Assembly: GCA_025917655.1 (NCBI GenBank)
Contig: CP084614.1
Span: 1,240,001-1,304,000, forward strand
Source of the DNA: Chlorella sorokiniana
Lineage: Eukaryota; Chlorophyta; Trebouxiophyceae; Chlorellales; Chlorellaceae
DNA length: 64,000 bases
Direction: 5' to 3'
The notes under the pieces were generated by a model. That model was not told the DNA's origin. It searched no databases and saw only the letters and a list, made by a program, of their open reading frames with translations. This document shows, in pieces, positions 4,476 to 62,162 of the stretch. Made by a program: the position numbers and the translations under genes. How positions within the stretch are numbered: the first letter of the stretch is position 1; each line of letters opens with the position of its first letter.

Positions 4476-4499
4476 AACGGCCGAGCCACCACGATGAGG

Positions 4500-5712
4500 G
4501 GGTCTCGGAGCTGACAGACGAAGCTGTTGAGCTGGCGTCACAGGAGCGCTATGAGCAGGCGGCAGCCCTGTTTCGTGAGGCGCTGGCGTTGACCCCGGGG
4601 ATGCCGCTGCGTGGGAGATGCTCTCTCAGTGCAATCTGGAGGCTGGTCTTGACGAGGCGGCCTACGACGCAGCCAGAGCGGCGGCAGAGCGGCGGCCCGG
4701 CTGGACGGCGGCGCTGCTGACGCTGGGCAGGGCGGCCAGGAACACGGGCAGGCTGAAGGAGGCGGCGGCGGCGTTGGAGGGCGTCCTCAGCTGCGTAGGT
4801 GGCCAGTGCTCGGGGGCCGACGCGGATGTGGAGCTCCAGCAAGAGCTGCAGCAGCACGCTGAGCTGGCGCGTCATGAGCTGGCCGATGTGCAAGAGCTGC
4901 TGCAGCTGCAGCTGGGCCACCAGCTGGGCCTGCCCGGGCTGCGGCTGGCAGAGCAGCACGGCGCAGCTGCAGGCCCTGGATCCGTTGTGTGGGAGGCGGG
5001 TGCTCTGCTAGCCTGGTTCCTCGCGCAGCAGCAACCGCAGCGGCTAGGTGCTGCTCCGCGCTGTGACTCTGGCGCATGCAGCCCGGCAGGCTGCAGTGCC
5101 CCGAAACCTCAAGCTGACGCACCGCACCCACAAAGAGGGAGCTGCCCCGCACACAGTCGGGAGCGCAGCTTTCTGTATGGCGCTCAGGTGCTGGAGCTGG
5201 GCTCTGGCGGCACCGGCGTTGTGGGCCTGGTAGCTGCCTGCCTTGGTGCGGCAGTCACGGCGACAGACCTGGTGGAGGTGCTTCCGCAGCTGAGGGCCAG
5301 CGCAGCGCTCAACCGCAGCCTGGTCGAGCAAGGCGAAGGCAGCGTGCAGGTTGCGGTGCTGGACTGGCGCAAACCTGCCGGGGATCTGTTGTGCCCAAAG
5401 CCGCCAGCTCTGCAGTATGACTGGCTGGTGGGTGCAGACCTGGTTTACAATTCTGCGGCTGTGCAACCCCTGGCAGACACTGTGGGTGCTGCGGTTCAGC
5501 ATGTTGCAGCATTGGGTAGGAGCCCGGACAGCACAGCAAGCCGCCCCTTAAAAGTCCTCATCTGTCACAAACATCGACACCAGCATGTAGATGCTGCATT
5601 GCTTGCTGCTCTGGCAACAGCAGGGACACCCCTGCGTGCCGTTCTGCAGGACCCAGGCACCAAATGCACAGTGTATGCCAATGCAGCTGCGTGCTCGGCG
5701 CTTGGCCTGTAG
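4500..5712 (+). CDS. TPR domain plus class I protein methyltransferase (Methyltransf_16-like)
   Basis: The N-terminal half carries TPR helices: ELASQERYEQAAALFREAL, then WEMLSQCNLEAGLDEAAYDA, then TAALLTLGRAARNTGRLKEA. The C-terminal half is a Rossmann methyltransferase with motif I VLELGSGGTGVVGL, an acidic SAM-ribose residue in VTATDLVEV, and motif post II WLVGADLVYN, as in METTL21/EEF2KMT-type lysine methyltransferases. It probably methylates a protein. The first TPR is split: ALTPG and DAAAWEML are in different frames and rejoin if one G is added at the C4G4 run 4593-4600. No in-frame ATG precedes the TPR. The first ATG in the downstream frame is 4618, which would cut the TPR in half, so the true start is unresolved. 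The segment 5048-5187 has low-complexity sequence and could be an unrecognised intron. Confidence 0.72.
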
Positions 5713-5767
5713 ATGTGTCTTTCCATTTCCATACTTGGCCCGAGCAAGTGTATAGCCACGTTTATCC

Positions 5768-5772
5768 TGTAA
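5768..5772 (+). terminator. TGTAA polyadenylation signal
   Basis: TGTAA, the usual chlorophyte poly(A) signal, lies about 56 bases after the TPR/methyltransferase stop. Confidence 0.6.
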
Positions 5773-8215: not shown

Positions 8216-9260
8216 TCACTCCTCCGCCTTCTTCACGCCCTCGAGCGCCTGCTTCAGCTCGCCTTTCTGGTGCATCTGCAGCGCAAAATGCGAAGCAGGT
8301 GGGTTATCACAATCTGCTGGGGTTACTTGCATGCAAGAGCTGCGTTGCCACGGCTGACACGCGGTTGCAGCTGATGGCTGGCAGGGGATGGCGCGCAGCA
8401 TGCATGCACACCTCATGCAGGATGTCGCTGCCGCCAATGAACTCCCCTTGATGAACACCTGCAGGGGGCGGCATAAGCTGGCGTTTGGCACCTTGGCTTT
8501 CTGCTCCACGCAACTAAAGGGCCTCCTCGCAACCCGTCAGACCTGCGGGATGGTGGGCCAGGCTGTGTAGCGCTTGACGCCCTCCCGGACCTCGGGGTCT
8601 GCCAGCACGTTTCGCGAGCCATACTCCACGCCTGCGCTCAGCTCGGTGGCAAGGGGTTGCAGAAAGCATTGGTTGGGTTGCACCAGGGCTGCACAAGTCT
8701 CTGAAATGAATGACAACCGACGTGCACGCTTGGAAGGAGCAGCGCAAAGCCAGGCCAGCTCACCGTACAGGTTCAGGATGGCGCAGGCCATGTTGCTGAA
8801 GCCGCACATGGGGGCCTGAGGGACGCCCTGCACGCGTTGGGCAGCCAGTAAGGGGGAGATCAGCCTACTGCTCCTCGCATGGTCAAACTCATGGCATGCA
8901 TAGCCCATCAGCCTCACACCTTCATGTAGATGAACACATCATGGCTGCTGATGTCCTGCTCGATTGTCGCGTCAACACTGCCAGCAGGCGCGGCCTTCAT
9001 CTGTGGCTTGAAGTCGTCATGGCTGTCCGGCTCGCTGCTAAACCATCGGACCGGCAATACACTGCCTGAAAGGTCGAGGAAAGTGGTGAAAGGTCCCGTT
9101 AAACCCTCATGCAGAGGGTACTGGAGGCGGCGAAGGCGGCAGGGGCGGCCGCCACAGAGCGAGCGCTCCATTGCTCACCTACACGCTGCAGCTCGGCGAG
9201 AGACCCGCCTTGTTGTGCTGCAGGCAAGAACTGCCTTGCGGAGGTGAGAAGGCGCTGCAT
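8216..9260 (-). CDS. GRXS15: Mitochondrial monothiol glutaredoxin, CGFS type (GRXS15-like)
   Basis: Six exons join without any correction: 9260-9179, 9065-8920, 8827-8764, 8631-8543, 8458-8412 and 8275-8216, giving about 161 residues. The N-terminus MQRLLTSARQFLPAAQQ is a mitochondrial presequence. The core reads DVFIYMKGVPQAPMCGFSNM with the CGFS active site, then [20 protein letters not shown] and SDILHEMHQKGEL, which are the cis-Pro (TIPQ) and GG glutathione-binding segments. Plant GRXS15 shares the KGVPxAPxCGFS layout and carries [2Fe-2S] clusters for mitochondrial Fe-S assembly, so that is the expected role. Its 3' end faces the BRCT gene, with only about 150 bases between them. It is divergent from GET4. 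This is one of the cleanest gene models in the window. Confidence 0.95.
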
Positions 9261-9743: not shown

Positions 9744-11033
9744 ATGCAGCACAATACGCCGTCGCTCCCGGGCTGTGCCTTGCTGCCTGTCCCCGCCATT
9801 CCTGTCATTGTAATGCTCGCTTCGGCCTGCACAGGTGCTGCGCAAGCTGGAGGCCTCTCTGGAGGCAGGCCAGTTCTATGAGGCACACGAGATGTTCAAG
9901 ACGGTGTACTACCGGCACCGCGCCCGCGGGCAGGCGGAGGAGAGCTACGCGCTGTGCTGCGCGGGCGCGCGGCTGCAGCTGCAGCGCGGCCAGCTCAACT
10001 GCGGCCTGGAGCTGTGCATGCTGCTGGTGGAGGCGTACGCCGCCGACGGGCTGCAGCCCGGCGAGGCCGCCGTGGCGCGCGTGGCGGCGCTGGTGGACGC
10101 GTTCCCGCGTGAGGCGCGCCCCCCGCCGACCACCCGCCCGTGCACGAGTGCGCCCAGTTTGTGGCAGCGGCCGTCAAGTGGCTGCGAGGGTGAGGAGGCG
10201 CAGTGGGTCTGGCTCGGCCGGGTGGGCCGAGACTTGCGGGGCAGCAGACGGGCGGGCGGGCGCCTGCGGTTGGCGCTGCCTGAGATCGCCCATGTATCTC
10301 AGCGGGGCCCTTGCTCTCCTTTCCTGCAGGGCAAGCGACTGGCTGCACGAGGCGCAGCTGGAGGGGCGGCTGGCGGCCTACATCACCGCCAGCCTGGGCT
10401 GGCAGGGGCTGGGCTACGCGCTGCCGCACTACGCGCGAGCGGGCGACGCGGCAGCCATGGCCGCGGCGGTTGCGGCGGCGGCGGCGCAGGGCAGCCCAGA
10501 GGAGGAGGACTTGTTCGTGGCGCGGGCAGCGCTGACCATGGCGGCGGCGCGGCCGCCCCGGGCGCCCCGCCCTCGGTGGCCCTGCCGCAGCAGCTGGCGG
10601 CTGCGCAGCGGGTGCTGGGCGCCGCATACGCGGCGGCAGCGGGGCACGCGCCCCCGACACGCCGCTGCTGCGCTTTGCTTCCTTCTTCCTGGAGGCGCTG
10701 GGGCGGCGGTCGGACGAGCTGGCGCGGGTGCTGCTGGAGCGGTACGCACCCAGCATCGACCGTGACCCGGCGCTGTGGCAGGTGGTGGGCAAGTGCCGCT
10801 CCCTGCACCTGCCCGCGGCGGCGGGAGCTGGCGGCATGGGGGGCCTGCTGTCGGGCATGCTCAACATGCTTGCGCAGCCTCGGGCTGACCCCAGCCGTCC
10901 CACACGCGGCGCGCTTTTTGGAAGTGAGGCGCCCTCGTTGAAGAAGGCAGGCCGGCGGCTTGCAGGAATATCCTGCATCAGGCATGGCTGGACACTGTTT
11001 GTTGGAAATCATCTCCATGTGAATCGGCCATAG
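9744..11033 (+). CDS. GET4: GET4 / TRC35 homologue, guided entry of tail-anchored proteins
   Basis: Cytosolic alpha-solenoid adaptor that bridges the chaperone Get3/TRC40 and the upstream Get5-type complex for tail-anchored protein insertion into the ER. The first certain exon is 9835-10189, read from an acceptor: VLRKLEASLEAGQFYEAHEM, then LQRGQLNCGLELCMLLVEAY. The second is 10330-11033: ASDWLHEAQLEGRLAAYI, then LRFASFFLEALGRRSDEL and ERYAPSIDRDPALW. The ATG at 9744 is a candidate start, but its splice to 9835 is not resolved. Three single-base gaps break the frame: the C6 run near 10119-10124, GCGCGG near 10545, and the C5 run near 10651-10655. Adding one base at each restores a continuous Get4 solenoid. 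The derlin gene downstream is also an ER factor, but there is no evidence of co-regulation. Confidence 0.85.
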
Positions 11034-11536: not shown

Positions 11537-14500
11537 ATGCAGGGGTGCCCGGCGAGCCTGGGCCTCGCTCCTGGCGCCCCTAGCAGCCTCCGATGGTGCT
11601 CGGAGCGACAGCCCGCCCGCCGCGGCGCCTTCATCCCGCCACTCAGGCAGCGGCGGCAGCAGGGCTCCGACCTCGCCTGCCGCACGCTGGAGCACAACAG
11701 CGGCCGCTGGCCTGGTGGGCTGCAGAGCGGGCTGCTTGCCTTCCAGTCATCTTCCTCCTCCCAGGGCGCCGACTTGAGCGCGGGAGCGGGCAGCGGCCCC
11801 CACCACGGCAGCAGCGGTCTGACCAACGGCGGCGCACACGGCCCGCGCCCCTCGCTGCCCACCGAGACCTTCAAGCAGCTGCGGCACGCGGTGCTGACCT
11901 CCCTGGACATTGCTGACAATGTGGAGCACACGGTAGACTACGAGGACGGCGGCGCGGAGCTGCAGGAGGACATCCCCTGGAGTCGCAGCCCTCGGCCAAG
12001 GAGGTTGGCAAGAGCGTGTTTGAGGTGCGCCGCCCCGGGCCGCCAGAATCCAGTGGCACGACAGCCGCCAACACGTCCACCTCGCCGCGTGCGCCCCTCC
12101 GACAGCCGACCGCCCCGTCTGTGTTGGGAGTGGTGCCGCCGCGCTGGCAGGACGGCGTGTGTGGCTGGCTGGCTGGGCTTGAGCTGCGCCTGCCTCGCCA
12201 CCGCCCAAACCCCGCAGACGCTGCGCATTGACCAGGCGGGCAAGACGCGGCGCGTGTACGTGCGGCGCCGCGACCTGATCCGCGCCCACGGCCTGCAGCC
12301 GCGCGACCTGCGGAGGGTGGACCCCTCGTTGAGGTGCGCCGCTGGGGCCACGCGCAGCAGGCCAGAGGCAGCCTGGGGCGCGTGCCCGCTGCACCCAACC
12401 CCCGTTCATGCCATTTTCCAGCTGGCCAGGGGGCCCTGGGGAGGCCCACGGTCTGTCTTGCGCCGTGTCAGTGATGGTCCTGCGCCACAGCGGCAGCACA
12501 TGTCATGCAGCCACCCACCCACCTTCCCACGCCGCCCAACAGCATGCCCCCCCCCCCCCCGCCCGCTGCAGCCCCACCAAGGTGTCCCCCAGCGTGACGA
12601 TCAAGGAGGAGTGCGTGCTGCTCAACATTGGGGGTGCGGGCGCTGATCACCGAGGACAAGTGCCTGCTGTTCGAGCCCTCCTCCCCCTCCTCGCGCAAGT
12701 TCCTGGAGATAGTGATGCCCAAGATACAGGCGGCATGTGAGTGGCGGAACGTGGTGGTGGTGGTGGTGGAGCGCACATTGCTCCTGAGGGCCCCGTCTGC
12801 CTCTGCTGCCTCCACCACGCAGCTCAAGAGGCAGTGGTTGGCGGCGGGCCCGCCTGGCATGGGCTGGGCTGCCACGCCAGCGGCCGAGGTGGGCGGTCAA
12901 GCAGGTTTGACACCCCCTGGCCCGCCGTATGCAGACGCGGCCAACCAGCGGCGTGCGGCGCTGCGTGGCCTGCGCCCGGCGACGGCTCCGCCAGCGACGG
13001 CTCTGAGGGGGACTACTACCACCCACACGGGCACGGCGGGGAGGGCCACGAGTCGTTTGAGGACGAGCGCATCTTCCCTTTCGAGCTGGAAATGCTGGAG
13101 GGGGCGCTGATGGTGGCGACGGGTGAGTGGGGCCTGGCTGGGGGAGGGGCTGGGGTTGCCAAGCACTGCCTGCTGGCAGGCTTGGGGTTCCGGGCTCGTG
13201 GCAGGCTGCTGGCAGGTTCAGGTGGCCAGGCACTCGCTGGTGTGGGTGTGTCCTGCACAATCTATTCAAGGATCGGCTGGGCGAGGTCGGGAGGCTGCCC
13301 AGCAGGTTGGAGCTCGGCGGGTGCTCAGCTGGGGTGCCCCCCCCCCTTCCCGCGCAGGCAAGCTGGATGCGGAGCTTGTGGCGGCGACGCGGCGCGTGTC
13401 GAGCATGCTGCAGAAGCTGCCGCGCGAGATCACGCCCGTCAACCTGGAGGAGCTGCGCCGCGTGAAGCAGCTGCTGGTGGAGCTGGAGAGCAAGGCGGAG
13501 AACATGCGGTGGGCGGGGGGCGGCTGGGCGCAGGCAGCGGCTGCTGCACCTGCCGCCTGGAGGCTGCGCTGCTGCACCTGCTGCCTGGGAGCTGCGCTCC
13601 TTTGTGGCATGCCTGCGCAGGGCACGCAGTCAAGGAACCGCCCATGCACTCTCCTAGCCGCACTGCTTCCTGCGTTATTCTGCAAGCCGCGCTTGCTTGC
13701 CTTGCGGCCGGCCTTTCCCTCCGTGGCTGGCCCTGCCAAAATGCATACCCTGCTAGCCCCCCCCACAAAAACACCCACCCACCCACCCACCCACACCCAC
13801 ACCCCTTGCCGCTCTCTCCCAGCGACCTGCTGGAGGAGCTGATGGACGACGAGGAGGAGTTCATCCAGCTCAACCTGTCCTCCCGCCCCAAGCGGGAGGA
13901 GCGGCGCAAGCAGCGCGAGCGCGAGCGGCTGGAGCGCGAGATGGAGCGGGAGCTGGCCGACAGGGCCGCCGCGGCGGCCGCCTCGGCCGCGGAGGCGGCG
14001 GCGGCGGCCACCGCGGGCGGCGGCGCGGCCGTGGCACGCGGCGAGCCGCAGCCCACGCGCTCGGCCAAGACCCGGTCGGAGCGGATCCAGCAGCTGCGGG
14101 CGCGCGGCGCGGGGAGGAGGGCGGCAAGGGCGAGGAGGGCGACGGCGGCTACCAGGATGCGCAGGATGCTCTGGAGGAGATGATCGAGGAGGTGCGGCGC
14201 GCGTGCGTGGACCTGCCTCGCCCCTGCAGCAGCCTGGCTGCACCAGCAGGCCTGCCCGCGTGACGGGCAGCGGAGTCGGCAGGAGCTCGCTGCATCGCGC
14301 GGCGCTGCCCTCGCCCACCCTGCCCTCCCTGTTTAAAGCATGGGCCCGCCTCTGTCTGCCGCTGCGCAGGAGGAGGAGGAGCGGGAGCTGGAGGAGGTGG
14401 AGGACCTGCTGGAGTATTACCTGCAGCGCGCCGCCAACACGCAGAGCGAGGCGGAGCGGCTGCTGGCGGGGGCGCGAGACCTGGAGGAGTCCATCGGCGT

Positions 14501-16093: not shown

Positions 16094-17910
16094 ATGCCGC
16101 CGCGGGAAATCAGACAAGTTGGCGATCGGTGAGCAAGGGTACTGGGGCTTTGACTGCTGCGTGCAGCAAGCCAAACGCCGCCCTCACAGACCAGCGCACC
16201 ACGCCCCAAACTGGCCGCAGGGGCGCCGCCGACTGGTACCACGCGCTGCCGCCCATCACGCGCTCCCTGCTCACCTGCTACGTCGTCACGGGGCTGTCTT
16301 TCTACCTGGGCCTCATGCCGCTCCAGTACTTTTATCACGACTGGGGCCGCATCTTTAAGCGCGTGCCGGAGGTGCGTGTGGGTGTGAATGGGTGCGGTTG
16401 GGTGGTTGCGTGGGTGGGTGAGAGGGGGCCGCTGTTTTGGGGGATGTCGCATGTCATGCAGGCACCGGGGCCAGCAGACCAAGACTAGGAGCAGACAGCC
16501 TGCTGTGTCATGCCAGCCGCATGTATAGCCAATGGCAGATTGCTCGGTGTGTGTCGTTTGCAGCCAAGCCGCGATGTCGACTTGGCGGCGGTGGTGGCAG
16601 TGGCTGCTGCCTCCCTGCTCCTGACCCTGCTGCCGGCTGCCGCCCGCCCGCAGGTCTGGCGCTTGGTGTCCAACTTCACGTTTCTGGGCAAACCCAGCCT
16701 GGGCTGGCTCTTCCAGCTCGTCTGGCTGTGAGCGCAGCTGCCCGTTCTGGCTCCAACCCCGCCCTTGCCGCCTGAGGCGCTGCGGCAATCCGTGGGCGCT
16801 CGCGCTCCCTCACCACCGCGCCCCCCCCCCCCCCTACACACACACGCACACTCCTGCCCCTCCATCCCTGCCGTGCGCAGAGCTCAGTATGGCGGTGCCT
16901 ACGAGCAGGCCAAGTTTGCGGGCAACACGGCAGACGGCATCACGTGCCTGGGGTGGGCGTCATCGCCGGCATGGTAAGCGGCGGCGGCCTCCAGCGTCCC
17001 CTGTGGGCTCCGCTGGATCCAGCTGCGCGCTGCCGTTGCAGCTGCCCTCCCGGTCTCCACCGATTGCAAGCTTCTCCCGCACCGGAAACCAGCAGCCGTG
17101 CTTTCCCAGCCGTGCTTTTCCAGACACCGCCATGCGCATCCCCCCGTGACCCCCCTCCCCGCCCCCGTGCTGCCGCCTGCCAGTCGCTGGACCTGCTGTC
17201 GTACCTGGGCGCCCGCCTGGTGCCCCCCGTCTTCTTCTCCTACTTCCACGCCGCCGCCATCATCTTCATGTTCGTCTACCTGTGGTCGCGACACTTCGCA
17301 GAGGCCCCGGTGCGTGCGTGCAGCCGCCGCCGGCCCGCCGCTTCGCCAGCTGCTGCTGCAGCATGCGCCTGCAACATCCGCTGCCATCGTCTGCGGCTGC
17401 AGCTGTTCGCGCCCCTGCCGGCCCGCAGGTCAGCCTGTTTGGCATCATCAAGCTCAACGGGCGGCACCTGCCCTTTGCCTTCCTGGCGCTGGACCTGCTC
17501 ATGGGGCAGGACATCTGGTCGGGGGTGCTGGGCATCCTGATGGGGCACACGTGGGTGGCGCCGCCGACGACCCCTGCTTGCGCCGTCGCGCAGCCTGGCC
17601 GGGGCCTGCTCTCTGGCTCCACAGGTTGACTGGCAGGGCACGCGGCATCTGCGCACCTGCTGAAGCGACCCCCGCCCCCCCACACCCACACACCACCCTC
17701 ACCCCCCACCCTTTACGCAGATACTGGTTCTTGACCGAAGCCTACCCGATGGCCACGGGGCGGCACGTGGTGCACACGCCGCGCTGGCTCTCCCGCCTGT
17801 GCCTGCAGTACGGCATCGGGCGTGTGCCGCTGGCCGCCGTCAACCCCGTCAACCCGTCGGATGTCGGCTTCCGCGCGTTCCAGGGCCGAGGGCGCCGCCT
17901 GGCGGACTGA
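16094..17910 (+). CDS. DER1: Derlin (Der1-like ER retrotranslocation protein)
   Basis: Seven exons: 16094-16128, 16221-16371, 16654-16727, 16881-16973, 17184-17309, 17429-17550 and 17721-17910. The short first exon, MPPREIRQVGDR, splices in phase to GAADWYHALPPITRSLLTCY, giving the short cytosolic N-terminus normal for derlins. This start is therefore preferred over the upstream frame from 15976. The body shows VWRLVSNFTFLGKPSLGWLF (the WR motif), LSYLGARLVPPVFFSYFHAA, FMFVYLWSRHF and HTYWFLTEAYPMATG, all derlin signatures with multiple membrane segments. It acts in ER-associated degradation. Exon 4 needs one extra G near 16951 (CTGGGGTGGG), and this is confirmed by the phase at the next splice. 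A rhomboid-type GxxxG motif was not located. Confidence 0.9.
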
Positions 17911-18100: not shown

Positions 18101-21100
18101 TCACTTGCGCCGCATGGTGAAGCCGCCGCCGTGGCGAGGGCCCACACCCGCCTCCTCCTCCTCCTCCTCCTCCGAGCCCTCTTGGGGCGGCGGCTCATGG
18201 GACCAGGCCAGCCAGGCGTGGCCGTAGGCATGCCGGATGAAGTCCAGCACGGCGGTGCAGCTGGTGTACCGCTCGCCGCTGGCGTCCGTGAACAGCACCT
18301 GAGGCGCATCCACGCCAACGGCCTGCAGCGGCGAGGCGGTGAGCGCGTCCAGCGCCTCCCGCAGCGTGCCGTGCTGCGCCGCCAGCACCAGCGTGGCGAT
18401 GCGCGGGGCCGCCGCGGCCGCCTCAGCGGCGGCAAAGGCGGCGGCGCCAGGCGCATGCACAAAGTTGGCAGCGGGGTCGTCGCCGTCGTCCATGCCGCCG
18501 CCTGCGTCGCCGCCGCCTGCGTCGCCGCCGCCGTCTGGCTCGGCGCCCTGCTGGTCGGGGTGCGGCTCCGGGGGGTCCGCCGTGACTGAGATGGTGACGT
18601 GGGTGGCGTGGTGCATGAACTGGTCCAGGAAGAGCAGCGGGCGCCGCACCGGGTACTCGTGGTTCTGGTGGAGCTGCGGCGAGGGAAACAGGGGTTGGGG
18701 TGGGTGGGGTGGGGGGTGGGGGGTTTGCAACAGATGTGGAAGGCGGACGGGAATGGTCAGGCAGTGCGACGGCGAGGAGCCAGGGAGGCAGAGAGCCGCG
18801 CAGAGAGTGCAGGACAGGGATTGCGGTACCGGCACGCAGCTTGCAGGGACCTTCTGACCACCGCCGCCCAATGATTGCAGCCACGCCGCCAGGCACCACA
18901 AACCCACATGCAACCTATCCTCCTTGTGGGCACACTGCAGGCATCATTCACGCCGCTGCACACACCTGGATGACCAGCGAGCGGCGGGCCCCCTCTGGCA
19001 GCGGCGGCAGGCGCACGTCAAAGCGCTCGCAGTGGCGCGCCGCCGTCAGCTGCTCCTCGCTCAGCGCCCCCACGCAGGCGGGGCAGGGGCAGGGCGGGGC
19101 GGCGGGGGCGGGTGGCCCTCTGGCCCGAGCTGCCCCAGGCGGGGGCGGGGGCACTGCAAGGGGGGCCAGCAGGCGGGTGAGCCGGGCCGCGGTGAGAGCC
19201 AGGGGAAAAGGCCAGCAGCACTGCGCCCAAGGAGGGCACAGCAACGTCGTGACTGGCACACAGGCTTTGCCATGTGCGCAAGCTGGGGGCAAACCCTGAT
19301 GGGTGCCTCCTGCGAACGCTGGAGCACACGCAGGCGCATTCACGCCCCGCCCCTGCCCAAGTTGGTGCCAGACCCGCCCACTCACCTCAATCGTGATGGT
19401 TTCCAGGCCGGGGGCGTGTGCCCCTGAGGTCCACCTCCCTGAAGTGCCGCAGCGACAGCTCCCGCAGCGAGGTGAGGTGTGCGATGCTGGGCCCGGCGCC
19501 GTCGGCGGGGCCGGCCACAAAGGCTGGCCAGGACTCTGGGTCCAGCGGCTCGCCCTCCTCCTCCGCCACCGCACATAGGTCCAGGCTGGTCAGCGAGGGG
19601 GAGCTGCCTGCGCGGAGGTTTGATGAGGGTGAGGGTCGGCAGCAGATCATCCGGGGGCCACCAGCATGTGAGTCAGCAGCGCTGTGCCGTCGTGAGCAGC
19701 AGTGGCAGTGCAGGCAGCCGCAGGGCAGGCTGGCGGGCGGGCGGGCGCCCTTCGCTGCGCAGCACCGCTGCGGGCGCCTCACCCGACCGCCTGCCAGCTG
19801 TCATCGTCGTGCAGCAGGTAGCCCTCCAGGCGCTGCAGCCGCGTGAATACCTGGTGTGTGTGTGTGTGTGGGGGGGGATCCTCGGTGGCAGGAGTGGGTC
19901 GCAACCCGAAGAAGGGAGGGGCGGCACCTTAAGCCCGCAAGTTCCCTCAGCCGGCCGCTCATCGCGGGCACTGCTGCCGCCGCTGCCTTCTCTGCAACCT
20001 GCCCTCAGCCACCTAACAGCGGCCCCCCAGGCAGGCCCAGCGCCGCCTCACCCCCAGCTCCAGGCTGGGCAGCAGGTCCAGCCCCTGCAGCGACGCCAGG
20101 CTGGCGGCGCACCGCCCCGGAAGTCCTCGTCGCCCAGCACCGCGGCCGCCTCCTCGGCCGGCACCGCCTCCAGGGCCAGCCCCGCCACCTCAGCCTCCGC
20201 CACCAGGTAGGCCAGCTGGTCGGGGTGGAGGGAGTAGGAGAAGCCGAGGGTGCGGGGCTGGCCGGGGCGGCGCGGTGCAGGTGAACCGTCATGCCGTCCC
20301 GCATGCCCAGCTCCTCGTCGGCCTCTGCGGGTTGGGGGCAGAGAGGGGAGGGGCGCTTGCTGACACGAGCACGAGGCGACAGAGCTGGTGCCAAGGCCTG
20401 CTCTGCGGCCAGGCCGAGAGGGGGAGCAAAGCGGGCGCTGCTGGCTGCCAGGGCTGGCAGCAGCGTGGGAGGTCACAACCAGCGCTGCTCAGGCTGCAGG
20501 CGACGGAAGCGACCGCCCCCGCTCACGCAGGTCGTCTGGGTTGTACACGCAGCCAAAGTCGCGGAAGTCGTGCTGCTGCAGGTCGGCCGCCAGCGTGACC
20601 AGGTGCATGGTCTCCACCACATCGGGCTGCAGCAGGGCAGACGGAGACGGGACGCGACGCTTGGTGGCGCACAGACCAAGGCAGGCACAACGCCGCTTGC
20701 TGCTGAACGCCACTTTCAACCTTCCGGTTCCTCCCTGCATGCAATGCAGCGAGGGGGCTGCGCAGGCGGCAAGAGGAAGGTGCGGGGCCACCTAGCCCTC
20801 ACCAGGTAAGCCTCCTCCGGGATGTGCCGCGCCAGCTGGCCCCCACCCGCACCAGCGCCACCTCCTGGGCCACCAGCTCCACCTCCTGAACCACGCCCTC
20901 CCTGCGGCGCAGCACAGCACAGCAGGAGCGGTGTGAGCGGGAACCAGGCTGGGGCGAAGCATAAGGGGAGCCACCCTGCTTCAGTGCTGCCAGCCCGGAT
21001 GCCGCCGACCTCCACCTCAGCCGCCCTCCTGTGCCGTGTTTGCCCCAACGAAGCGCCCCCACCCCCACCCCCCAACCCCCACCCACCAACCCCCACCCAC

Positions 21101-31051: not shown

Positions 31052-31368
31052 TCCGCTGGACCAATACACAAACTGCAAGAATGGAAAACGCCGGGAGTAA
31101 TGATGAGTGTTGAGCGAGAGATCTGTCTGGCTGCCCGACAGGCACGCTTCGCCACGCGCTGGTCGGCAGCCTAATCAACGATCTTGTGGCCATTACAATT
31201 CTTCGTGCGGATTGCACACGCGCCATAGTGCTGCAACTCGTGGCTGTCGCGCGCTCTTTGCTCCAGTACGAGGAGTGCTCAAGTGCACAAGGTTTACGCG
31301 TGCCCGACGGCGACCGCAAGATCTCTGACTTTTCGCACTTCCTATTGCGACTTGTGAAGTCTTTGGCC
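31052..31368. other. Divergent promoter region FRO / secreted ORF
   Basis: About 315 bases between the FRO start and a plus-strand small ORF. It should include the FRO promoter, though an acceptor at ~31078 hints at an extra upstream FRO exon. No metal-responsive element was identified with confidence. Confidence 0.4.
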
Positions 31369-32812: not shown

Positions 32813-32817
32813 TGTAA
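32813..32817 (+). terminator. TGTAA polyadenylation signal
   Basis: TGTAA about 155 bases after the stop at 32657, in the convergent spacer before the RING-type gene. Confidence 0.55.
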
Positions 32818-36104: not shown

Positions 36105-36267
36105 CGCAGAAAGATTCACAAGCTCACACGAACGATTCGAGGTAGGGGGAACCGGTGGGTCGGTGCTGGGAAATGGTGATGGTGAGGGCGAGCTGGCGCC
36201 ACCACATCATCAGCATCAGGGTTTTGCCCCAGCAACCGACACGGGCACCCCAGAAACTGCTGAAAGG

Positions 36268-45200: not shown

Positions 45201-46996
45201 TCGCGCCCCGCATGCCCACTTGCTGCCGCCGCCCTTGCCCCGCCCCGCCGCCGCCAGGTCATCCTGCTGTTCCCCACCGCCTTCTGGAGCGACGAGCTGG
45301 ACATGTTTGGGCACGTGGCGGGGGGGGGGAGGACCGCGGCGAGGCCTTCCTCTTCTACTCATACACCCACATCTCCGGCGGCGCCCTGCTGGTGGCGCTC
45401 TACTCGGGTGGGCTTCAGGGGGGCCAGGCTGGGGTGGTCGTCGGGCTTCAGCGCTGAGGGGCGCCAGTCGCCAGCTTGCTGCCGCCAGTGGCCCCCAGCA
45501 GTGGTGCTGAATGGCACAGACGCGTCAATGGGTGGCCTCCAGCCAGCCTGAGCCGCACCCTCCCGCCCGCCCATCCCGCAGGCGAGGCGGCGGTCAAGCT
45601 GGAGGAGCGGTCGGCGGGGGAGGCGGCGGGGCGCGTGATGCGCGTGCTGCGCTCCATCTACGAGAAGCGGGCGTGGAGGTGCCCGCCCCCTTGCAGGTGC
45701 GCCGGCGGGTGGTACAGCCCGCAGCCCGCATGCCTGGGACACAGTGTGGTGCTGCTGGGCCTTTGCCGCTCTGGTTGTTGTACACCCGCTGCAGCACCTG
45801 CCTCCCTTGGCATCCCTGTCGCCCTGCATCCCACGTCCCCCCCACCACCACACACACACACTCTCAACCCCCCAGGTGGTCACCACTCGGTGGGGCCGCG
45901 ACCCGATGGCCTACGGCTCCTACTCCTCCATGGCGGTGGGCACACACGGCGGCCCCGACTACGACTGCCTGGCGGAGAGCGTGGGCGGCAGGGTGAGCGG
46001 CGGCAGCTGCGCTTGGGGCCCACCGCTGGGCAGAAGGGCGGCGAGCAGCGAGCGGTGGGGCCCGGCTTCGGCTGGGTGGGGCAGCGAGCTGCAGCAAGCG
46101 GTTGTGCCTGCAAACCCCAGCCTCGCGGTGGCAGGTTCTGACGGCGAGCCCGCCTGGGCTGCCCCCTGCAGGTGTTCTTTGCGGGGGAGGCGACGACCCG
46201 CAAGTACCCGGCAACCATGCACGGCGCCTTTGTGTCGGGGCTGGAAGTGGTGGGTGGGCGCGCAGCCCTGGTCTGGCCCGACGCAGCGCAGCGGCGTGCT
46301 GGCTGCATTGGCGGTTGCCTCAACTGAGCGTGGCGATGGTGAGCAGCGCTTGGTTGACGCCTTGCCTGCCGCACCTACCCCTGCAGGCGGCAAACGTGGA
46401 TGCCACGCTGCGCAGGGCAAGCGTGGCACGGCGATCCGGTGGCACAAGCGCGGTGCCTGTCGCGCTGCAGCCATTGGCGCAGCGTGTGGCGCTCGAGCAG
46501 GCTGAGCAGGCGGCGGCTGAGGTTGATCAGCGGCTGTGCCTGGCGACAGACCTGGAGCAGCTGTTTCAAGATCCGGAGCACCCGCCAGACTTGGAGGCCG
46601 GCTGCGTGGCTGCAGTGCATGCGCCGCCGGCAGCCGGCGGCAGCGGAAAAGTGAACGGAGGCACAGCGGCCTTGCAGCGGCACGCGCAGCAGAGCCTGCT
46701 GCGGTTAGACTGGGGCGCCGTCAAGGGCGCGCGCGCGGCGAGGGCTCGGCCCGCGCTTCCTCCTTGTGCCTCGTGCCGTCGCCGAGGCGCTGGCTGACGC
46801 ACCTTCCAATGATGCCCGCCTGGCGCTGCTGGAGGTGCTGCCAGAGCGCCGACACGCCGGGCGGCAGCACCTGCAGACCGCTGGGCTGGTGGAGGTGGTG
46901 CGGCGGGCACGACAGCGGTGCAAAGAGGCACCAGAGCGGTCGGCGGCCAGGGCGCCGGCGGCAAGCGACGGCTTGGTCATACCCCATCGCTCGTAG
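42201..46996 (+). CDS. LDL: LSD1-type histone lysine demethylase (SWIRM + amine oxidase)
   Basis: Twelve exons: 42201-43033, 43194-43525, 43662-43779, 43977-44116, 44268-44477, 44619-44708, 44906-45072, 45258-45407, 45582-45696, 45876-45992, 46172-46246 and 46387-46996. Order: a low-complexity N-terminus ending in a Ser/Glu run; a SWIRM domain (ARNLVLARWRQDVSRRLSEA, FLNALGFINFG); an FAD-binding start (IVVVGAGCAGLAAARQLRAA); substrate and catalytic segments LKRGDEALRFSPPLSDRK and IQRLGFGTMNK, whose Lys matches the catalytic Lys of human LSD1; AYGSYSSMAVG; and the FAD end motif VFFAGEATTRKYPATMHGAF. No ~100-residue tower insert is present. FAD-dependent demethylation of mono/dimethyl H3K4 is expected. 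A ~190-residue C-terminal extension is unassigned. One-base gaps: 43495 (RPGGRV motif), 43980, ~45325, ~45672, ~46745, plus two in the N-terminus. Confidence 0.9.
42841..42880 (+). repeat. AGC/GAG-rich repeat encoding Ser/Glu run
   Basis: (AGC)n followed by (GAGAGC)n in frame in the N-terminal region of the LSD1 homologue. Confidence 0.85.
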
Positions 46997-47467: not shown

Positions 47468-49587
47468 ATGCTAGAGGCTTCTAAGCCGCCCATTGCTGAA
47501 ACACCCGAATTCAACGGATATCCGGCCGTATCAGCAGCCCAGTGTAGCTCTGCTGGGGAGGCAGTGGGCGCTGCTGATGCGGCTCAGGGCGGCCGCCGCC
47601 AGCATCGCCCCACCAAGCCGTCGCGTGCCAGGGCAACTGGCAGGACTGCTGGCGCCCCAAGCTGCCAGGTGGGTGTGGAGAGGGCGTCCAAGGCCATGAG
47701 CAGGCCCTGTGCATTCTGCCAGCCGCGATGGACAGGTGGCACCGATGCTGGCTTGGCTCTGGCCAGGGACAGGCGGCGCAAAGGTTGCATCCATCGATCA
47801 TGCTGCGTGTATGGCCATCTGAACAGGTGTTGGGCTGCAATGAGGCGCTCCCAAACACCAGGCAGTTCTTCAAAAGGTGCGGGTGATAAAGCAGGGCGAA
47901 GGCGATGAGTCGGCGAGCGTGATTTGGCGCAATGGCACGCTGGGCTGCTCGCGGGAGGCCAGCGGACACCACCCCTGTCACCCTTGCACATGCCATCATG
48001 GGTTCCTGCCTGGGATGCCATGCAGGTATCGCATTTGCTTGACGCACAGCAGGGCCCAGCAGGTTGAACGTGGCGGCTCGCTGTTCCGCTTCTGCCAGCA
48101 GGTTAGAAGGCCAGGCCAGGCGTGCTGCGCCGCTTTAAAGCAACAAAGTTCTTCCTTTGAAGCCCCTGACCACTAGGCCACCCTCTTGCCCATCTGTCCA
48201 TGCAGCATGGTCGCTTCCACCCCCTGGACCAGTTCAACGGAAACCAGCGCAGCTGCACCGCCGGCCTGGCGCGCCACCGCCGCCGCCCGCGGGCATGCGC
48301 GAGGCGGCGGTGGCCACCGCCCAGGCTGACCTGGCGGAGGAGGCTGAGGCTGCCGCGGCGGCCGCCGCCTATCGTGAGGACCATGACGAGGAGCTGGGCC
48401 TGCGTGCTGTCATGTCGCCCACACCGTCCCACACGCCAAACACCACCACCCCGAGCCTCAGCAGCTGCAACAGGGGCCGCACCAGCTGCCCGCCCCTTCG
48501 GTGCAGCCCCGGGCTGCGCGGCGGTGCGGCCTGGGCTGGCGGCGGGCCCCAGACCCCTCAGGCCCCCCGCAGGCCCCCACACGGGCAGCCACCGGCAGCC
48601 AGGCAGACAGCGGCAGCCCGGGGGCTGCCGGCCGCCGCCTAGCCCTGCCCCTGCTGCGCTTGCCTGGAGAGGTGGCAGCGCGCAGCTGCCTGGAGGCCGA
48701 GATGCATCAGGCCCTGGCCACCCCGCTCTGGCCAGCTCCTGGAGTGCAGGCCCCACAGACCTTCCCCACAGCGCCCGCACTGCAGCACTTACGCGGCGGC
48801 CTGATCCCTGCCGCGATGGCTGCCACCGCATTCCAGCCCACCGGCGCCAGCTGCCAGCTGCCAGCCTGGGCGTCTGGTGGGGCTGCCGGCCATGCCCCGG
48901 CTCCCTCGCCCCCATGCCACAGATGGCGCAAGCGCCTCGGGCTGTGCCAGCACACACGGTGCCTTCTGTCGCCGTGGCGGCGGGCTGGCTGCCGACTGGC
49001 TGGCCCCTGGCGCCCGCTGCTGTGCAGCAGACTCCTGCTCCGTCTGGCTGTTTCGACGGCTCGTCGCCCTTCATCCTGTCTGGAAGGCCCATCCCATCGG
49101 CTGGCTCACCCGGCGGCAACCCGGCGGGGGCGGTGATGCCGCCCTTACCTGGATGGCTGCAGCAGCAGCTTCCAGCAGGCCAGGCGATTGAGTCCCAGGT
49201 TGCCCCCTTTGGGCTGGGCATGCCGCCACCGCAGCTGCAGGCGATGCCCCCGCCGCCGCTGGTGCCGGCGCGGCAGCTTGAGGCCCCGGCTGCCGCCCCT
49301 GCTGCTGGACTTGAGACGGTCATGGACAAGTTTGATGCGGATCTGGTGAGTGGTTTGGTGGTCGGGTGGAGGATTTGCTTGGCACGCTGCACACCAACCC
49401 CATCGGGACAGCCCAGCTGCGAGCCTAAAGGAAGGGTGAAGCAGACATGGCCTGACAGCGCCCGCTGGGCAGCCAAGCGGCTCCCACGACAAGGCCCCAA
49501 CGTCGCTCCAACCCTGGCGGCTTCATCTCGCAGGAGCAGCTGGCTGCTGACCTGGCGGACCTCCCCCATACTGCGCGCTGGGCATGA
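47468..49587 (+). CDS. SBP-box transcription factor
   Basis: Plant-lineage-specific DNA-binding protein. Exons: 47468-47668, 47827-47876, 48026-48101, 48206-49345 and 49534-49587. The SBP domain is assembled across four exons: SCQ/VLGCNEALPNTRQFFKR/YRICLTHSRAQQVERGG, then SLFRFCQQ/HGRFHPLDQFNGNQRSC. Finger 1 ligands are Cys (CQ), Cys (GC), Cys (IC) and His (TH). Finger 2 has Cys (FC), His (FH) and Cys (SC), but the ligand usually Cys in FCQQC is His here (FCQQH). A basic LARHRRRPR follows, the usual nuclear signal. The rest is long, Pro/Gln/Ala-rich and likely activation sequence. It ends EQLAADLADLPHTARW. Frame changes occur after the basic stretch (~48290) and near 48450 and 48930. It should bind GTAC-core sites. 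Equivalence to any named algal SBP factor is not established. Confidence 0.85.
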
Positions 49588-50292: not shown

Positions 50293-53200
50293 CTAGCGCC
50301 GCCCCCCCGCGCTTTCTTGCTTTCTCCTGCGCTGCACTAAGGGGCGGAGCGGCCGGAGGGCGCAGGCTGTCCGCTTGGCTGCTGCTGCTCGCGCTTCTGC
50401 TGCCGCCGCCAGACTGCCTGCTGCTGCTGCTGCTGGCCGTCCACTCCTGCCTGCTGCTGCTGCTGCCACTGCTGCCGCCGCTGCCGCTGCTTCTCCCCGC
50501 AGGCGCCGCCGCCGCCCGCCCGCGCGGCTACAGGCCCAGCACGCGTAGAGCGCGGCGCCGCGTGGCGCGCGGGGGAGGCGGCGCCGCGCCCTCTGCCCCC
50601 GCAGCACCGCGTGCCCCGCCTGCAGCACGTCTGTGAGGAAGCGGCTGCGCTCCGCCTCACGCCGGCTCTGCGGGCCGTACAGGCTGGTCTCCAGGGTGTG
50701 GGTGAGGCGCAGCCGGCTCTTGGCGCGGGTGAGGCTGACGTAAAAGAGGCGCCGCTCCTCGGCCAGCGCCTCGGGGATGACTCGTCGCGCAGCAGCGGCA
50801 CCAGCCCGTCGTTGCAGCCTGGGGGCAGTTGAGGGGCGTGCGGTTGGGGGGTGGGAGGCGGGGTGAGGGGCCGGAAAGGAGCTGCAAGGCGGGAAGCCCC
50901 TGGTGCGTTGCGTGGCAGCCCTGGGCGCAGCCTCTGTCGTGTACAAGTGCAGTCAACCGCAAGGGCAGGGCGCAGCGCGGCGAACGATGCCGGCAAGGGG
51001 CGCTGCGGCGATGCGCCGCCAGCTGGCGCGCACCCGGCACGAAGACGAGGTCGAACTCGAGGCCCTTGGCGGCGTGCATGGTCATGAGGCGCACGCCGCG
51101 TGCGCCGCCGCCCCCTCCTCCGCCCCGAGTACAGCGCCGCCTCATCCAAGAAGTTCTGGGCCAGCTGCAGCCGGGACGGCGGCGGCCCCGCGGACTCGGG
51201 CGCATCATCCAGGGCCGCCGCCCCGACAGCTCCCCGGGGACGTAGCCCGTCGCCGCCCCCACCAGCTGGTCCAGCCGCTGCAGCCGCTCCCGCGCGTCCC
51301 CCTCCTTGGCGGTGCCGCTGGCGCAGCCGCCCTCCAGCACGTGCTGGCGGTAGCCGGTCTGCGTGCGGGGCCGGGGGCGACGATGCGGGGGAAAGGGAGG
51401 AGAGGATGGGACGCAGTGGCTGGGGACTGCCGCGGCTCCCGGCTGTCCCGCCCGCAAGCTGCTCGCCCTCATTCAACATACACGCCAACAAGCCCCGCCT
51501 CCCCACCTGCGCAATGATCTGCTCCAGCGCCTGGCCCAGCGGCTGGCCCCGCACCCCCGCCGCCAGCCCCGCCACCAGCTCCCGAAACGCCTCCAGCGCC
51601 GCGGCAGACTTGGGGGTCAGCCCCAGAGCCTTGCGATCGGGCAGCGGCGGGAGGCTGCCGCCGGCTGCCAGGTCGCCAAAGAGGAGCGTGCACAGCGTGC
51701 CGCCCTGCGCCGCCGCGGCAGCGGCCAACCGTTCCAGGCTGGCGTCGCCGACGCCGCGGCGGGGCGTGTTGATCACTCGGGCCAGGGCAACGTCGTCCCG
51801 CAGCCCCACCGCCAGCCGCAGGTAGGCCATCACGTCCTGGGAGAGGGCGGCAGGCAGGAGGGGGAGGGAGACCAGTCGGGAGGCAAGAGGTGGGCAGAGG
51901 GAGGGGAAGCACATGCCAGAGGTTCTCTGCACCCAGGCTCTGCCTGCTATCTGGCTGGGCCGCAGCGGCGCGCAATGACCGGCACTGGAGAGCCGGCACA
52001 GGACAGCTGCCGTCTTGGAAGGGAGCCCCCAATCGGAGAGGGCTGCCGCGAAACCCCCCACCTGGATCTCCATCCGCCGCCAGAAGGGCACACCCCCACC
52101 AGGATGTACGGCACGCCGCGCCGCACCTGCGTTTGCGGCATTATAAGGAGGGGAGTTAACCCCAGGAGGCGTGTGCATGGAGCAGCAGGGCCCATGGGGC
52201 AGAGGGGCATCCGGCAGCGGAGCGGCGGCAGCAGAGCAGCAGCAGCAACGCGCTGCCAGCACCCCTGAGCCGCTGCTTGCTGCCGCCGCCGTGAGCACAC
52301 TGGAGCGCTGGGGGCCGCTCCCGCGATCAGGGCGATCAGGCGAGCCACTGCCACAGCAGGGTTGGCCGCTGCCACAACAGGATGAAGCAAGTGCGGGCGG
52401 CAGCTGCCCACCAGCTCCTGCTCCACCAGCCGCGACTGCACGTGCGTGCGCAGCAGCACCGCCACCTGCTCGGGCGGGTGCTCGCGCCGAGCCAGCGCAC
52501 CCGCAATCTCAGCCGCCACAAACCGCGCCTCCTCCTGGCTGTCGCGCAGCACATGCACCTGGGCATGGTCGGGGGAGGGCAGGGCATGGGGGTCACAAGC
52601 GCGGGCTGCAGGGGTCGAGGCAGCAGCAGCGGCAGCGGCAGCTCAGCAGCCGCGCCACGCCCGGCCCTCCTGCCACTGCGGCGGCACTCCGGGCCGCCCC
52701 GGCCTGCCAACCCCCACCCTGCCCCGCCCCGCATGCCTCGATGGGGTGTCCCGGCGGCCGCAGCGGGCGCAGCGCCGCACGCTGCCAGTCGTCGTTCGCC
52801 GCTATGACGTGCTGCGCGGTGGCAACGATGCGGGCGCAGGAGCGGTAGTTGTCCCGCAGGTCCAGCACCTGTGGTGTGAGTGGGGGCAGTACAGGGGCAG
52901 TACAGGGTCGACAGGCAAGCGTTGTGCCAGACTCCATGGCAACTGGCCCCGCACCCACCAGGGCCACCCTCCAGGTTTGCCCGGTACAGCACGCCCCCGA
53001 GCCCACCTGCGCATCGGGAAGTCCTGGGCAAAGGCGTGGGTCATGTTGGTCATGTCTGCGCCCGCCACCCGTAGATGGCCTGATCCGGGTCGCCCACAAC
53101 CAGCAGGTCGGCCTGCAGGGGCGCGGTTGAAAAATAGGCAAGATCAGATCTGGGGAGGGGGGCTGCGGGCACACCTCTGCCTCAGGCCCCAGGGCTGCAA

Positions 53201-55547: not shown

Positions 55548-58559
<3,012 letters not shown>

Positions 58560-59715
58560 TGCTGCAGCGGGGAATAGAGCTGGTAGGTAAGGGAGTTCAA
58601 TAGCGATCCAGTGATCACGAGGAGGTTGTGGTGGGTGAAGCCGATAAATAAATACTGCGCGCTAATGCAGTCGGCGAGAAGAGATATGCTTTGATTAAAA
58701 AGCCGGACATGGCTGTTGTGCTGCGACTTTCCTCCCAGGCTGAATGCGCCATGCCAGGCTGACCAGTGCACGTGGCAGACCGGCAGACAGCAGCACATCT
58801 GGGCTGCATGTGCTCGCTCCATTGCCGTATCCTCGCCTTCACAGCGTTGACTAATTGTCACAATGCAATGTTGCTGCACTCATACATCGAATGCATTGCT
58901 GGGCATGGCAATGCAAGGATCACCGGCACCGAGCGCGCCAGCTGCGTGGGTACGACGCTGCCGCGCGAGGAGGGCTAAAGCGTGGCTGGAAGCAGTGCCC
59001 AAGACAGTCTGTCACGGACAGTGCGCTGTGGGCCAGGAGGCTTAGCGGTGGATGTGCGGTGCAGGGCGAACGGCATGGAGCAGGAAGCGCACAAGAGCCC
59101 AGCCGGTGGCAGTTCCCCCACTCAGCCATGAGCAGGCAGGCAGGCTGTCAAGGAGCACTGAAATGTTGTACCCTGTCTTAGCAACGTGCCTGCCAGCAAC
59201 TCTCTCACAGCATGTCGGGAGACATGCAGCGCAGCAAGCGCGCGGCAGAACGGCAGGGCACCGCCCCGCCATCGACATGCAGTGCAGCGTTGGGAATGTG
59301 GGCAGCCATTGTTTGTTAAACAGAATTCCTTACTAAGATTCAAGAATGTCTCCTTCTTTTCTCCAAGGGTGATGGAGGGGCGCCTTTGCAATATCTGGGC
59401 GATTGGTAATTCGTCCATGCCAGGTGTCGCGCAGCGGGGCGGCAGAGCGGCGGCGGCACCCAGCTAGCAGCTGATGTGAAATCACCGAGGAATTAGCGAA
59501 TGTTGACAGACGTGTGGCATGTCTTGCACCACCAAAGGCGCCACTGTTGGCTCTGCAGCCTGCGCTCTGAGCAGGACACAACCCCAGCGGTGGTTCCCAG
59601 CGCGCTTCCCGCGCGCGTCCTGCTGGTCTAGTGCCAAATCCATTGTGCAACCAGTCCGGTTTACCAGGGCAGCCAGCAGCAAGCACCCCAGATCGAGAGG
59701 GCAGCGGCTCGAGAC
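58560..59715. other. Divergent intergenic region GH9/glucokinase
   Basis: About 1.15 kb without recognisable exons between two divergently transcribed sugar-related genes. It is less GC-rich near 58600-58700 and 59320-59360. It presumably holds both promoters. No known motif was identified by eye. Confidence 0.5.
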
Positions 59716-62162
59716 CATGGCCATCATTAGCGTGCTTGTGGCCGATATTGGTGAGCAGAATGGATTGTACATGCATGGAGGCAGCCATGAAGCAGCCCTG
59801 GCCCCTCATCATCTTGGGTTGCTGCCAGGGCGGCTGGCCGGCAGCGGTGTTGCCGCTGCCGCCTGAAGTTGTGAAAATTGCGCCTGCTTGCAGGCGGCAC
59901 CAACTGCCGGTTCCAAGTGTGGCAGCTGGACAAGCACCTGCGACCGAGCCGCATGGTGCTGGAGCAGGTGGGCATTGCTCTGTGCTGCTGCTGTTGCAGA
60001 GCTGGTCATCTCACAACAGGTGCCTGGTCCCTGGACACGCGCCATGTCCCACCTTCTCTGCCCGGCGCCCTGCTGCAGTTCTACCCCACAGCAGACTACA
60101 AGCACTTCACCGATGCGCTGTCGGCTCTGCTACAGCTGGAGGCACTGCAGTGAGCTGCCCTGGCGGCTGTCCTTTTTGCAGGCTCGCTGTCAGCGTGCAC
60201 GCCTTGCAGCCGCATGCGCGGTCGAACTCTGCCCTTTGCTTGCCTCCCGCTCCCATGCAGGGGCGACAACAAGCCCAAGGCTGCGGCGTTTGCGTGCGCG
60301 GGTCCGGTGAAGGACCATCGGTGCACCATGACGAACCTGGGTGCGCAGATGCGGGGTGCTGCCCTCGCCTTGCGACCTCCTGCCAGCTGCTCCCTGCCCT
60401 TCACTGGAGTGCCCTCCTTCGCAATGCCGCTCGCAGGCTGGGTGGTTGACAAGGCGGAGGTGGAGTCCGAGTTTGGCATCCGCACAGCCGTGCTGAACGA
60501 CTTCGAGGCGGTGGGGTACGGCGTGCCTGTGCTGACCGACAACGACCTGGTGGTGCTGAACGACGTGCCCGCTGAGGACAAGGTGGGTTGGCGGGTGGGG
60601 CTGAGGGCAGGGTGGGGATGGAGCAAGGGGGAGGCTGTGGGTGAGGCAGCGAGGCTGTCCGCCTGCGAGCTGCGCCCCAGCACCGGCGCATCGGCCGGCT
60701 GCTGAGCTCGCCGCCGCTGCCGCCCGTCGTGCTGCAGGGCCCCAAGGCGGTGCTGGGCCCCGGCACGGGGCTGGGCGAGGCGGTGCTGTTCTGGGACGAC
60801 CACCTGGGGAACTACAAGGTGCACGCGTCTGAGGGGGCGCACGCCACCTTTGCGCCCCGCGGCTGGAAGCAGCGAGCGCTGCAGGCGCACGTGGAGCAGG
60901 AGCGGGGGCACTGCTCGGTGGAGCGGGTGAGGCGGGGTGGTGGTGGGGGGCAGCAAGGCGCGAGGGTGGGCAAGGCGGGGAGGGGCACAAATCTGCCCCA
61001 CGCATGTTCGTGCGTCCTGCTTGTGCCGACCTTTTTGTAAGCCAGCGATGAAAAGTTTTCACACCTGTGCGGCCTTGTCCGCACTTCCCACCCACAGGTT
61101 GCCTGCGGCTCTGGTCTGGTCCGCATTTACGACTTCTTGCGCAGCGACGAGCCCTCTCAGTACCCCAAGGTGGGCTGGCTGCCGGGCACACGGCAGCGCC
61201 TCGGTCCACAAACCTGCAGCTGGGTGCCTGCTCCCGACACCACCCTGCTCATCGGCCTGTGCCGGCTGCGCTGGCTCACCATGTGCCCCCTCCCACCCCG
61301 GCTGCTGCTGGCAGGATCGCATGGACCACGCCAAGCAGGTGACCCCGCTGACGTGACGACCGCGGCGCTGGACAAGAGCGACCCGGTGGCGGGTGAGGGG
61401 CAGCGAGGGGCCGCGGTTCCATGTGCTGGCTGACTGCTGCTGTTACTGGGACCCCACCCCCCCCACCCCCTCGTACCCCCACCACACCCACTCAAACCGT
61501 AGCTGCACCCCCACCCCCAACAACTCACAGTTGAGGCGCTGGACATGTTCCTGGCCATTGTGGGCGCGGAGGCGGGGCACATGGCGCTGCGCTCGCTGGC
61601 CAGCGGCGGCGTCTACATCTGCGGCGGCATCTTCCCAAAGGTGTGGGGGTGCCTCTGGCGGGGCTGCTGGGGTCGGCGCGACAGGGGCCAGGCTGGGCCG
61701 CTGCTTGTGCGCTCTGCTCAGCATGCGGGAGCGACCTGGTGCTTGCAAGGCTGTTGGCAGCGACTGCTCGGGGCACGGCTCTCACCCAAGTGTTTGTTTG
61801 CTCCTGTTTCTGTCGCCAGGTCATGGAGCGCGTGCTGGCGGGCGGCGTGCTGGAGGGCTTCCTCTGGCGCGCCTCGCGCTTCCACGACAAGGCAAGCCGG
61901 GCGGGTGCCACCCTGGAGCGCCGATTGCCTGGCCAGGGGACGCCTGCCCCTCTGCGAACCTGGTCGAAAGCTTGTCTGTTTTGTTTTGGCGTTCCGATGC
62001 CAAAAGCTTCTCGCCTTCCCACCCCTTCTTTGTCTCGTGCAGGTGCTCAAAGACGTGCCGCTGTATGTGGTGACCGAGGAGAAGATTGGGCTGCTGGGCA
62101 CGCGGGAGGAGGCCATCCGCCTGGCCGAGGACGTGGTGGCGGAGCTGCAGATTGCCACGTAG
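59716..62162 (+). CDS. GLK: Bacterial-type glucokinase (Glk family)
   Basis: Eleven exons: 59716-59750, 59894-59967, 60079-60149, 60261-60340, 60437-60582, 60738-60926, 61098-61169, 61315-61392, 61531-61640, 61820-61891 and 62043-62162. Motifs: VLVADIGGTNCRFQVWQ (ATP phosphate 1), AAFACAGPVKDHRC, TAVLNDFEAVGYGVP with the catalytic Asp, KAVLGPGTGLGEAVLF, then the helices EALDMFLAIVGAEAGHMALR and GGVYICGGIFPK, and the C-terminus VPLYVVTEEKIGLLGTREEA. It phosphorylates glucose with ATP. It is the Glk (PF02685-like) type, not eukaryotic hexokinase, as in cyanobacteria and several algae. No targeting peptide is obvious, so it is probably cytosolic. Exon 8 needs one G near 61339 (KQ/GDPADVT). The intron after 61891 has a GCAAGC donor. 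Confidence 0.93.

Follow-up and report, generated by a model that had tools for sequence, protein, structure and literature searches.

Why should conserved proteins fall out of frame by a single base, gene after gene, along one stretch of DNA? The question is raised by a 64,000-nucleotide stretch of a green-alga-like genome assembly (C6:1240001-1304000; hereafter the window, meaning the whole stretch), in which an earlier reading of the letters, here called the sequence-only reading, had listed 16 sites where the frame breaks and one added base restores it, and had ascribed them to consensus error rather than to biology. We reproduced 15 of these 16 frame breaks, the protein pieces on either side being one base short and too close together for an intron, and we consider it highly probable that the gaps arose as consensus errors in a long-read assembly whose correction with accurate reads was absent or insufficient. 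The gaps are real in the sequence file but very probably not features of the organism.

To measure each break, we located left and right peptides of one protein on the DNA and took the distance between them modulo 3. Nineteen of 20 such anchor pairs could be located, and all 19 left a remainder of 2, that is, one base short; 15 of them correspond to sites of the sequence-only reading and 4 are new. The flanking peptides lie 2 to 29 nucleotides apart, except in the GH9 gene, where the pair overlaps by 1 nucleotide, and for three MRS2 pairs and the junction at 53017 the anchors follow coding continuity rather than a conserved motif. For the twentieth pair, in GRXS15, a looser anchor succeeded (gap 2, remainder 2), which, together with a decoder call at 8446, overturns the earlier statement that this gene is intact. 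The DCI1 part, decoded over positions 1-1003, has no frameshift call, in line with the earlier statement that it needs no base. The listed site that did not hold is the gap at 43980 in LSD1, which by eye falls on an intron acceptor, so that the frame there is unconstrained and no base is needed. Pfam stretches run continuously over the junction, when it is read with an X, in glucokinase, amine oxidase (two junctions), UvrD (53069), UvrD_C (50782), DER1, GET4 (10121), and TPR. The simplest case is GET4, where three open frames match separate parts of PF04190 (3-64, 90-153, and 184-257), with family positions 153 and 184 about 101 nucleotides apart in two frames.

The anchors were chosen after the frames had been viewed, so that this test was not blind; the unanchored test was a gene decoder that works on both strands, accepts introns no shorter than 60 bases between splice sites it has learned, permits no stop codon within a frame, and charges a fixed cost for each one-base loss or gain. 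Of the 57 HSP70 exon matches from elsewhere in the genome, 30 served as seeds, and training then continued on the window and on fetched loci; of 6,678 seed bases, the decoder assigned 6,389 to the correct frame, a figure that is not independent because the seed was also training data. In the 14,960 coding bases that it decoded in the window, the decoder called 20 one-base losses versus 3 gains, or about 1 loss per 750 coding bases, and single-base losses thus dominate there as consensus error would have it. Eight frameshift-free simulations gave 1 to 3 losses and 2 to 4 gains, leaving an excess of about 17 losses over false calls and gains no higher than the false-call level. Shifts planted in well-supported exon interiors were recovered in 82 of 90 cases for losses and 84 of 90 for gains, and three other intron penalties yielded 13 losses and 4 gains, 13 and 3, and 22 and 3. 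Half of the 16 sites listed earlier were called by the decoder (10121, 11978, 12977, 14115, 16952, 40438, 53069, and 61342); a further seven (4593, 10545, 10652, 39686, 43495, 52090, and 55931) are supported by anchors alone, the decoder having placed them in introns or outside exons. Adding these seven to the 20 decoder losses, of which 1 to 3 are expected to be false, gives about 27 junctions in the window.

The losses depend on runs of G or C. A G/C run of at least 4 lies within 6 bases of 12 of the 20 decoder sites, compared to 17% of coding positions, a share that none of 5000 random draws equalled; the other 8 sites have no such run. The placement that had been described as random shows no relation to gene function, but it is not random with respect to these runs. 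We also counted runs in the 131 frameshift-free coding segments of the window (14,385 nucleotides), with 200 synonymous-codon shuffles as the null: G/C runs of at least 6 occur 2 times, compared to 15.1 ± 3.0 in the shuffles (minimum, 7 of 200), in segments that were cut at called junctions and thereby split a G10 run in LSD1; all decoded coding sequence holds three G/C runs of exactly 6. G runs of at least 6 are depleted as well when the whole window is compared with a second-order Markov model (19 versus ~31). In the window and loci L035 to L038, with region types taken from decoder labels, the fraction extending to 6 or beyond among runs of 5 or more is 0.078 in coding sequence and 0.223 in introns, compared to 0.324 and 0.386 one step earlier. 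The dip in introns favors a technical cause, because intron sequence has no reading frame to keep; mutation biased against long runs could give the same dip, but not conserved proteins that are out of frame. Most true runs of six would then have been read as five. Equal-length runs are also found intact: 38 of 45 coding five-base G/C runs and 97 of 112 four-base runs are in frame with no junction within 30 nucleotides.

Cytosine methylation could affect base calling, and the 20 decoder sites include methylation-type contexts (CCWGG at 3 of 20 versus 10% of coding positions; CCGG at 3 of 20 versus 6%) in numbers too small to support a claim. The window encodes a C-5 cytosine DNA methylase fragment at 23955-24390 on the minus strand (PF00145, 3.3e-08).

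HSP70 copies elsewhere in the genome allow the same motif to be compared at different run lengths, and our patterns located four copies at each of two motifs. Between GIPP and PQI(E/A)V, the copy at L009 is in frame, with a 15-base interval whose longest run is 4, whereas L006 has 14 bases and L015 has 13, and both reach a run of 5. Of the four copies at DLGGGTFD, the three whose runs measure 3 keep the frame and the copy at L023, whose run measures 5, lacks one base; three more in-frame DLGGGTFD copies are found at L006, L012, and L034, and many HSP70 exons are in frame. The L023 locus (C3, near 1270970) is a divergent HSP70 gene with an apparent gain at 2016 and a loss at 2126, 110 bases apart. 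Outside the window, the breaks are shown at single motifs.

The one-sided losses, the preference for G/C runs, the dip in introns, and the equal-length runs that remain in frame are better accommodated by consensus error than by lesions, recoding, or pseudogenes, in agreement with the sequence-only reading, although the step from the pattern of frames and runs to error is one that we infer from the assembled sequence alone. Where a letter is repeated, the raw signal would count its copies poorly, and the base caller and the consensus would then settle on too short a run; G and C runs would carry most of the losses here because a G+C content of ~66% makes such runs frequent in this genome. Each loss within an exon would shift the frame, and automated gene models in the window will accordingly be cut or fused, as had been predicted. 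The living cell would carry the missing bases.

Several observations weigh against this explanation. The evidence is the assembled sequence only. At 8 of the 20 decoder sites (for example, LSD1 45668), no G/C run as long as 4 lies within 6 bases, and the HSP70 copy at L005 has 13 bases between GIPP and PQI(E/A)V, two short, with a longest run of 4, contrary to the run rule. C runs of at least 6 are not depleted under the Markov model (30 versus ~29), the codon-shuffle null is imperfect in that runs of 3 are also below expectation (343 versus 385.1 ± 13.4), and runs of 5 exceed expectation only slightly (43 versus 35.1 ± 5.1). The intron dip uses decoder-labelled introns and run lengths compared within this genome alone; between genes, the ratio falls only slightly (0.197 to 0.125), and the number of A/T runs is too small for comparison. 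As for direction, the consistent loss described earlier holds in the window but not in four random 10-kb stretches, where the decoder called 2 losses versus 9 gains in 7,492 coding nucleotides, and the gain at L023:2016 in the HSP70-like gene has the wrong sign as well. Most of the decoder's training came from the window, and a pair of closely spaced losses mimics one gain; both points bear on the random-stretch counts. Anchors were tried on 2 of these 9 gains; the pair at L038 was not located, and that at L037 was, with seven bases at L037:2066 where the motif presumably wants nine. Our confidence in consensus error is slightly lowered because of the L005 exception and the C-run count.

The alternative that survives best is recoding, in which a correct DNA sequence still yields whole proteins because, at G/C runs throughout the nuclear genome, the ribosome moves back one base or RNA polymerase inserts an extra one by slipping. 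One-sided losses that favor runs, as seen in the window, are what slippage would give. However, 38 of 45 five-base runs are read in frame, so that run length alone cannot mark a shift, and we found no signal that separates shift sites from their in-frame look-alikes, run length being the property examined. Introns, which are not translated, have a like dip in runs of at least 6; two of the four HSP70 copies at the 15-nucleotide motif are short by two bases rather than one; and 8 of the 20 sites lack a run of 4. To our knowledge, nontriplet decoding of this kind is not known from plants or green algae. If the DNA were correct, this would be a new kind of decoding, and we regard it as very improbable that the alga decodes its nuclear genes by shifting back one base, or by polymerase slippage, at certain G/C runs. 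Frameshifting on a genome-wide scale is possible in principle, as reported for Euplotes, with a frame change needed in many genes (PMC10235951, PMC4759687); Euplotes differs in shifting +1 at stop codons, whereas here a base is missing mostly near G/C runs and no fixed signal was found.

Real lesions, either in decayed genes or in a strain rich in frameshift mutations, would account for frames that are broken in the sequence as given, but they would have to have struck many unrelated housekeeping genes (GET4, derlin, DCAF13, glucokinase, and some HSP70s) whose read-through domains still score well (Pfam E values down to 1e-59), and the window shows mainly losses where mixed lesions would be expected; the signature of pseudogene decay, namely, mixed lesions, relaxed conservation, and dispensable genes, was not what we found, and this explanation has next to no probability. 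The same negligible probability attaches to short introns or wrong exon borders mistaken for gaps: one of the 16 sites, LSD1 43980, did prove to be an intron acceptor, but flanking peptides at the 19 located junctions are -1 to 29 nucleotides apart, gaps between adjacent HSP70 exon matches are by eye mostly ~90 nucleotides or more, and the decoder, although allowed introns of at least 60 nucleotides, still prefers 20 losses.

Consensus error of this type has published parallels. In Chlorella variabilis, also a GC-rich green alga (reference, 67.1% GC), long reads alone lose core genes and shorten gene models: four long-read-only assemblies recover 0 to 10.9% of core genes, compared to 88.5% for the best hybrid (PMC6154909). 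The likeness is incomplete, in that the word homopolymer does not occur in that paper and the present assembly has 15 contigs and its losses spaced as given above for the window. In one bacterial long-read assembly, indel errors are mostly false deletions and most often follow runs of 4 to 5 (PMC12007338); in nanopore assemblies of fungi, frames are broken mainly in homopolymers (PMC7500977); and R9.4.1 data improve with short-read polishing, mainly at homopolymers (PMC9262707). These three studies share with the window short indels that lie mostly in runs and genes that are frameshifted. Two of their details count against the parallel, namely, that A/T runs are worse than G/C runs in PMC12007338, whereas G/C runs are affected here, and that over-long runs are commoner after polishing in PMC7500977.

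The individual junctions are described here in order along the window. In the TPR gene, one base is missing at a C4G4 sequence (4593..4600, plus strand; gap of 2 nucleotides, remainder 2) without a decoder call, and TPR_16 and TPR_19 cross the junction when it is joined with X. The region at 3850-5700 (plus strand) encodes TPR repeats and, downstream of them without a change of frame, a lysine methyltransferase domain (PF10294, 1e-15), and it contains a 17-copy CAG repeat at 4377-4428. The GRXS15-like monothiol glutaredoxin is one base short at 8440..8450 (minus strand) according to both the decoder and the looser anchor; its Glutaredoxin match (PF00462, 1.3e-18) extends only 3 residues beyond the junction. 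All three GET4 junctions are on the plus strand: 10117..10139, with a C6 run inside it, is supported by decoder and anchors and is crossed by the PF04190 stretch 34-181; 10550..10578 is supported by anchors, the decoder having put an intron there instead; and 10651..10655, at a C5 run, is supported by anchors with no decoder call. The MRS2-like gene (plus strand), in which PF22099 was found, is one base short in its N-terminal part at a C4 run (11974..11982), at a C3 run (12973..12977), and at a G4 run (14112..14115), each called by the decoder and by the continuity-based anchors. In derlin (plus strand), decoder and anchors agree on a loss at a G4 run (16950..16953), which the DER1 stretch 52-158 (PF04511) crosses.

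A long minus-strand gene, for which no Pfam match was found, has two one-base losses at 20112 and 20265 (20105..20270) from the decoder and a three-frame view, as well as two weaker decoder calls at 21915 and 22575 (21915..22575) with no run of 3 within 6 bases. The same lack of a run applies to the single decoder call in a PBP-like gene (37866..37878, minus strand), whose PF12849 match is weak (0.002) and under the cut-off. DCAF13 (minus strand; matches to Sof1, PF04158, and WD40) is one base short at a G6 run of the gene strand (39686..39691; anchors, no decoder call) and at a G5 run of the gene strand (40430..40438; decoder and anchors). The plus-strand LSD1 gene is one base short at its RPGGRV motif in a C3 run (43495..43501; anchors, no decoder call) and at two new sites supported by decoder and anchors, one in the G10 run (45320..45329) and one with a longest run of 3 (45668..45669), both of which are crossed by the Amino_oxidase stretch 139-431 (PF01593). 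A plus-strand decoder model without a name has one loss call at 49560..49575, from the decoder only.

The UvrD/PcrA-type helicase at 50531-54300 (minus strand; PF00580 and PF13361) has introns in its decoded model, and the decoder fused that model with the neighboring GH9 gene; helicases of this type are better known from bacteria. The decoder gave a weak loss call without a run at the end of the model (50545). One base is missing at 50782..50783, a new site supported by decoder and anchors that is crossed by the UvrD_C stretch 477-558 (PF13361) and has no run of 3 inside it, with a G4 run ~6 bases off. Anchors place another loss at a G5 run of the gene strand (52092..52097) with no decoder call, and decoder and anchors together place two within 53016..53070, at 53017 (new, by continuity) and at 53069 in the GWRGA motif, the latter crossed by the UvrD-helicase stretch 1-219 (PF00580). 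The GH9 endoglucanase (minus strand) is one base short at a C5 run of the gene strand (55940..55942) according to anchors, with no decoder call. In the glucokinase at 59953-62159 (plus strand; PF02685, 2.1e-59), also of a type better known from bacteria, decoder and anchors agree on a loss at a C4 run (61339..61346), and the PF02685 stretch 7-288 crosses it. A hydroxyproline O-arabinosyltransferase-like gene follows at 62688-63827 (minus strand; PF23452, 6.7e-25), with one decoder gain call at 63781.

The assembly that holds the window comprises 15 contigs and 38,804,885 bases. Of 14 contig ends examined, all but the right end of C3 (L048) carry TTTAGGG or CCCTAAA arrays, which makes 13 ends on 7 of the 15 contigs; judged by eye over the last 160 bases, 6 of these 13 are perfect and 7 have irregular units, and these irregularities point to no sequencing platform. 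Exons of chlorophyll a/b-binding proteins gave 41 matches. The assembly is chromosome-scale and comes from a photosynthetic green-alga-like organism, an assignment made without formal placement and because of the chlorophyll-binding protein matches, the TTTAGGG telomeres, and the gene names. Chromosome scale, as seen in the telomere repeats, suggests long-read sequencing. Scanning the window for Rfam families and tRNAs yielded no match, and hence no frame-free RNA gene there; an 18S word had one match in the genome, but that locus had no Rfam match at the gathering score, and no 5.8S match was obtained among the 39 candidates scored out of 593. No near-identical copy of the region at 29800-36400 was found.

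For users of this genome, the consequence of such errors would be that gene models, claims of gene loss, and counts of pseudogenes are wrong wherever the breaks fall. The combined test of frame and run length works without reads, and it could be used to screen other assemblies.

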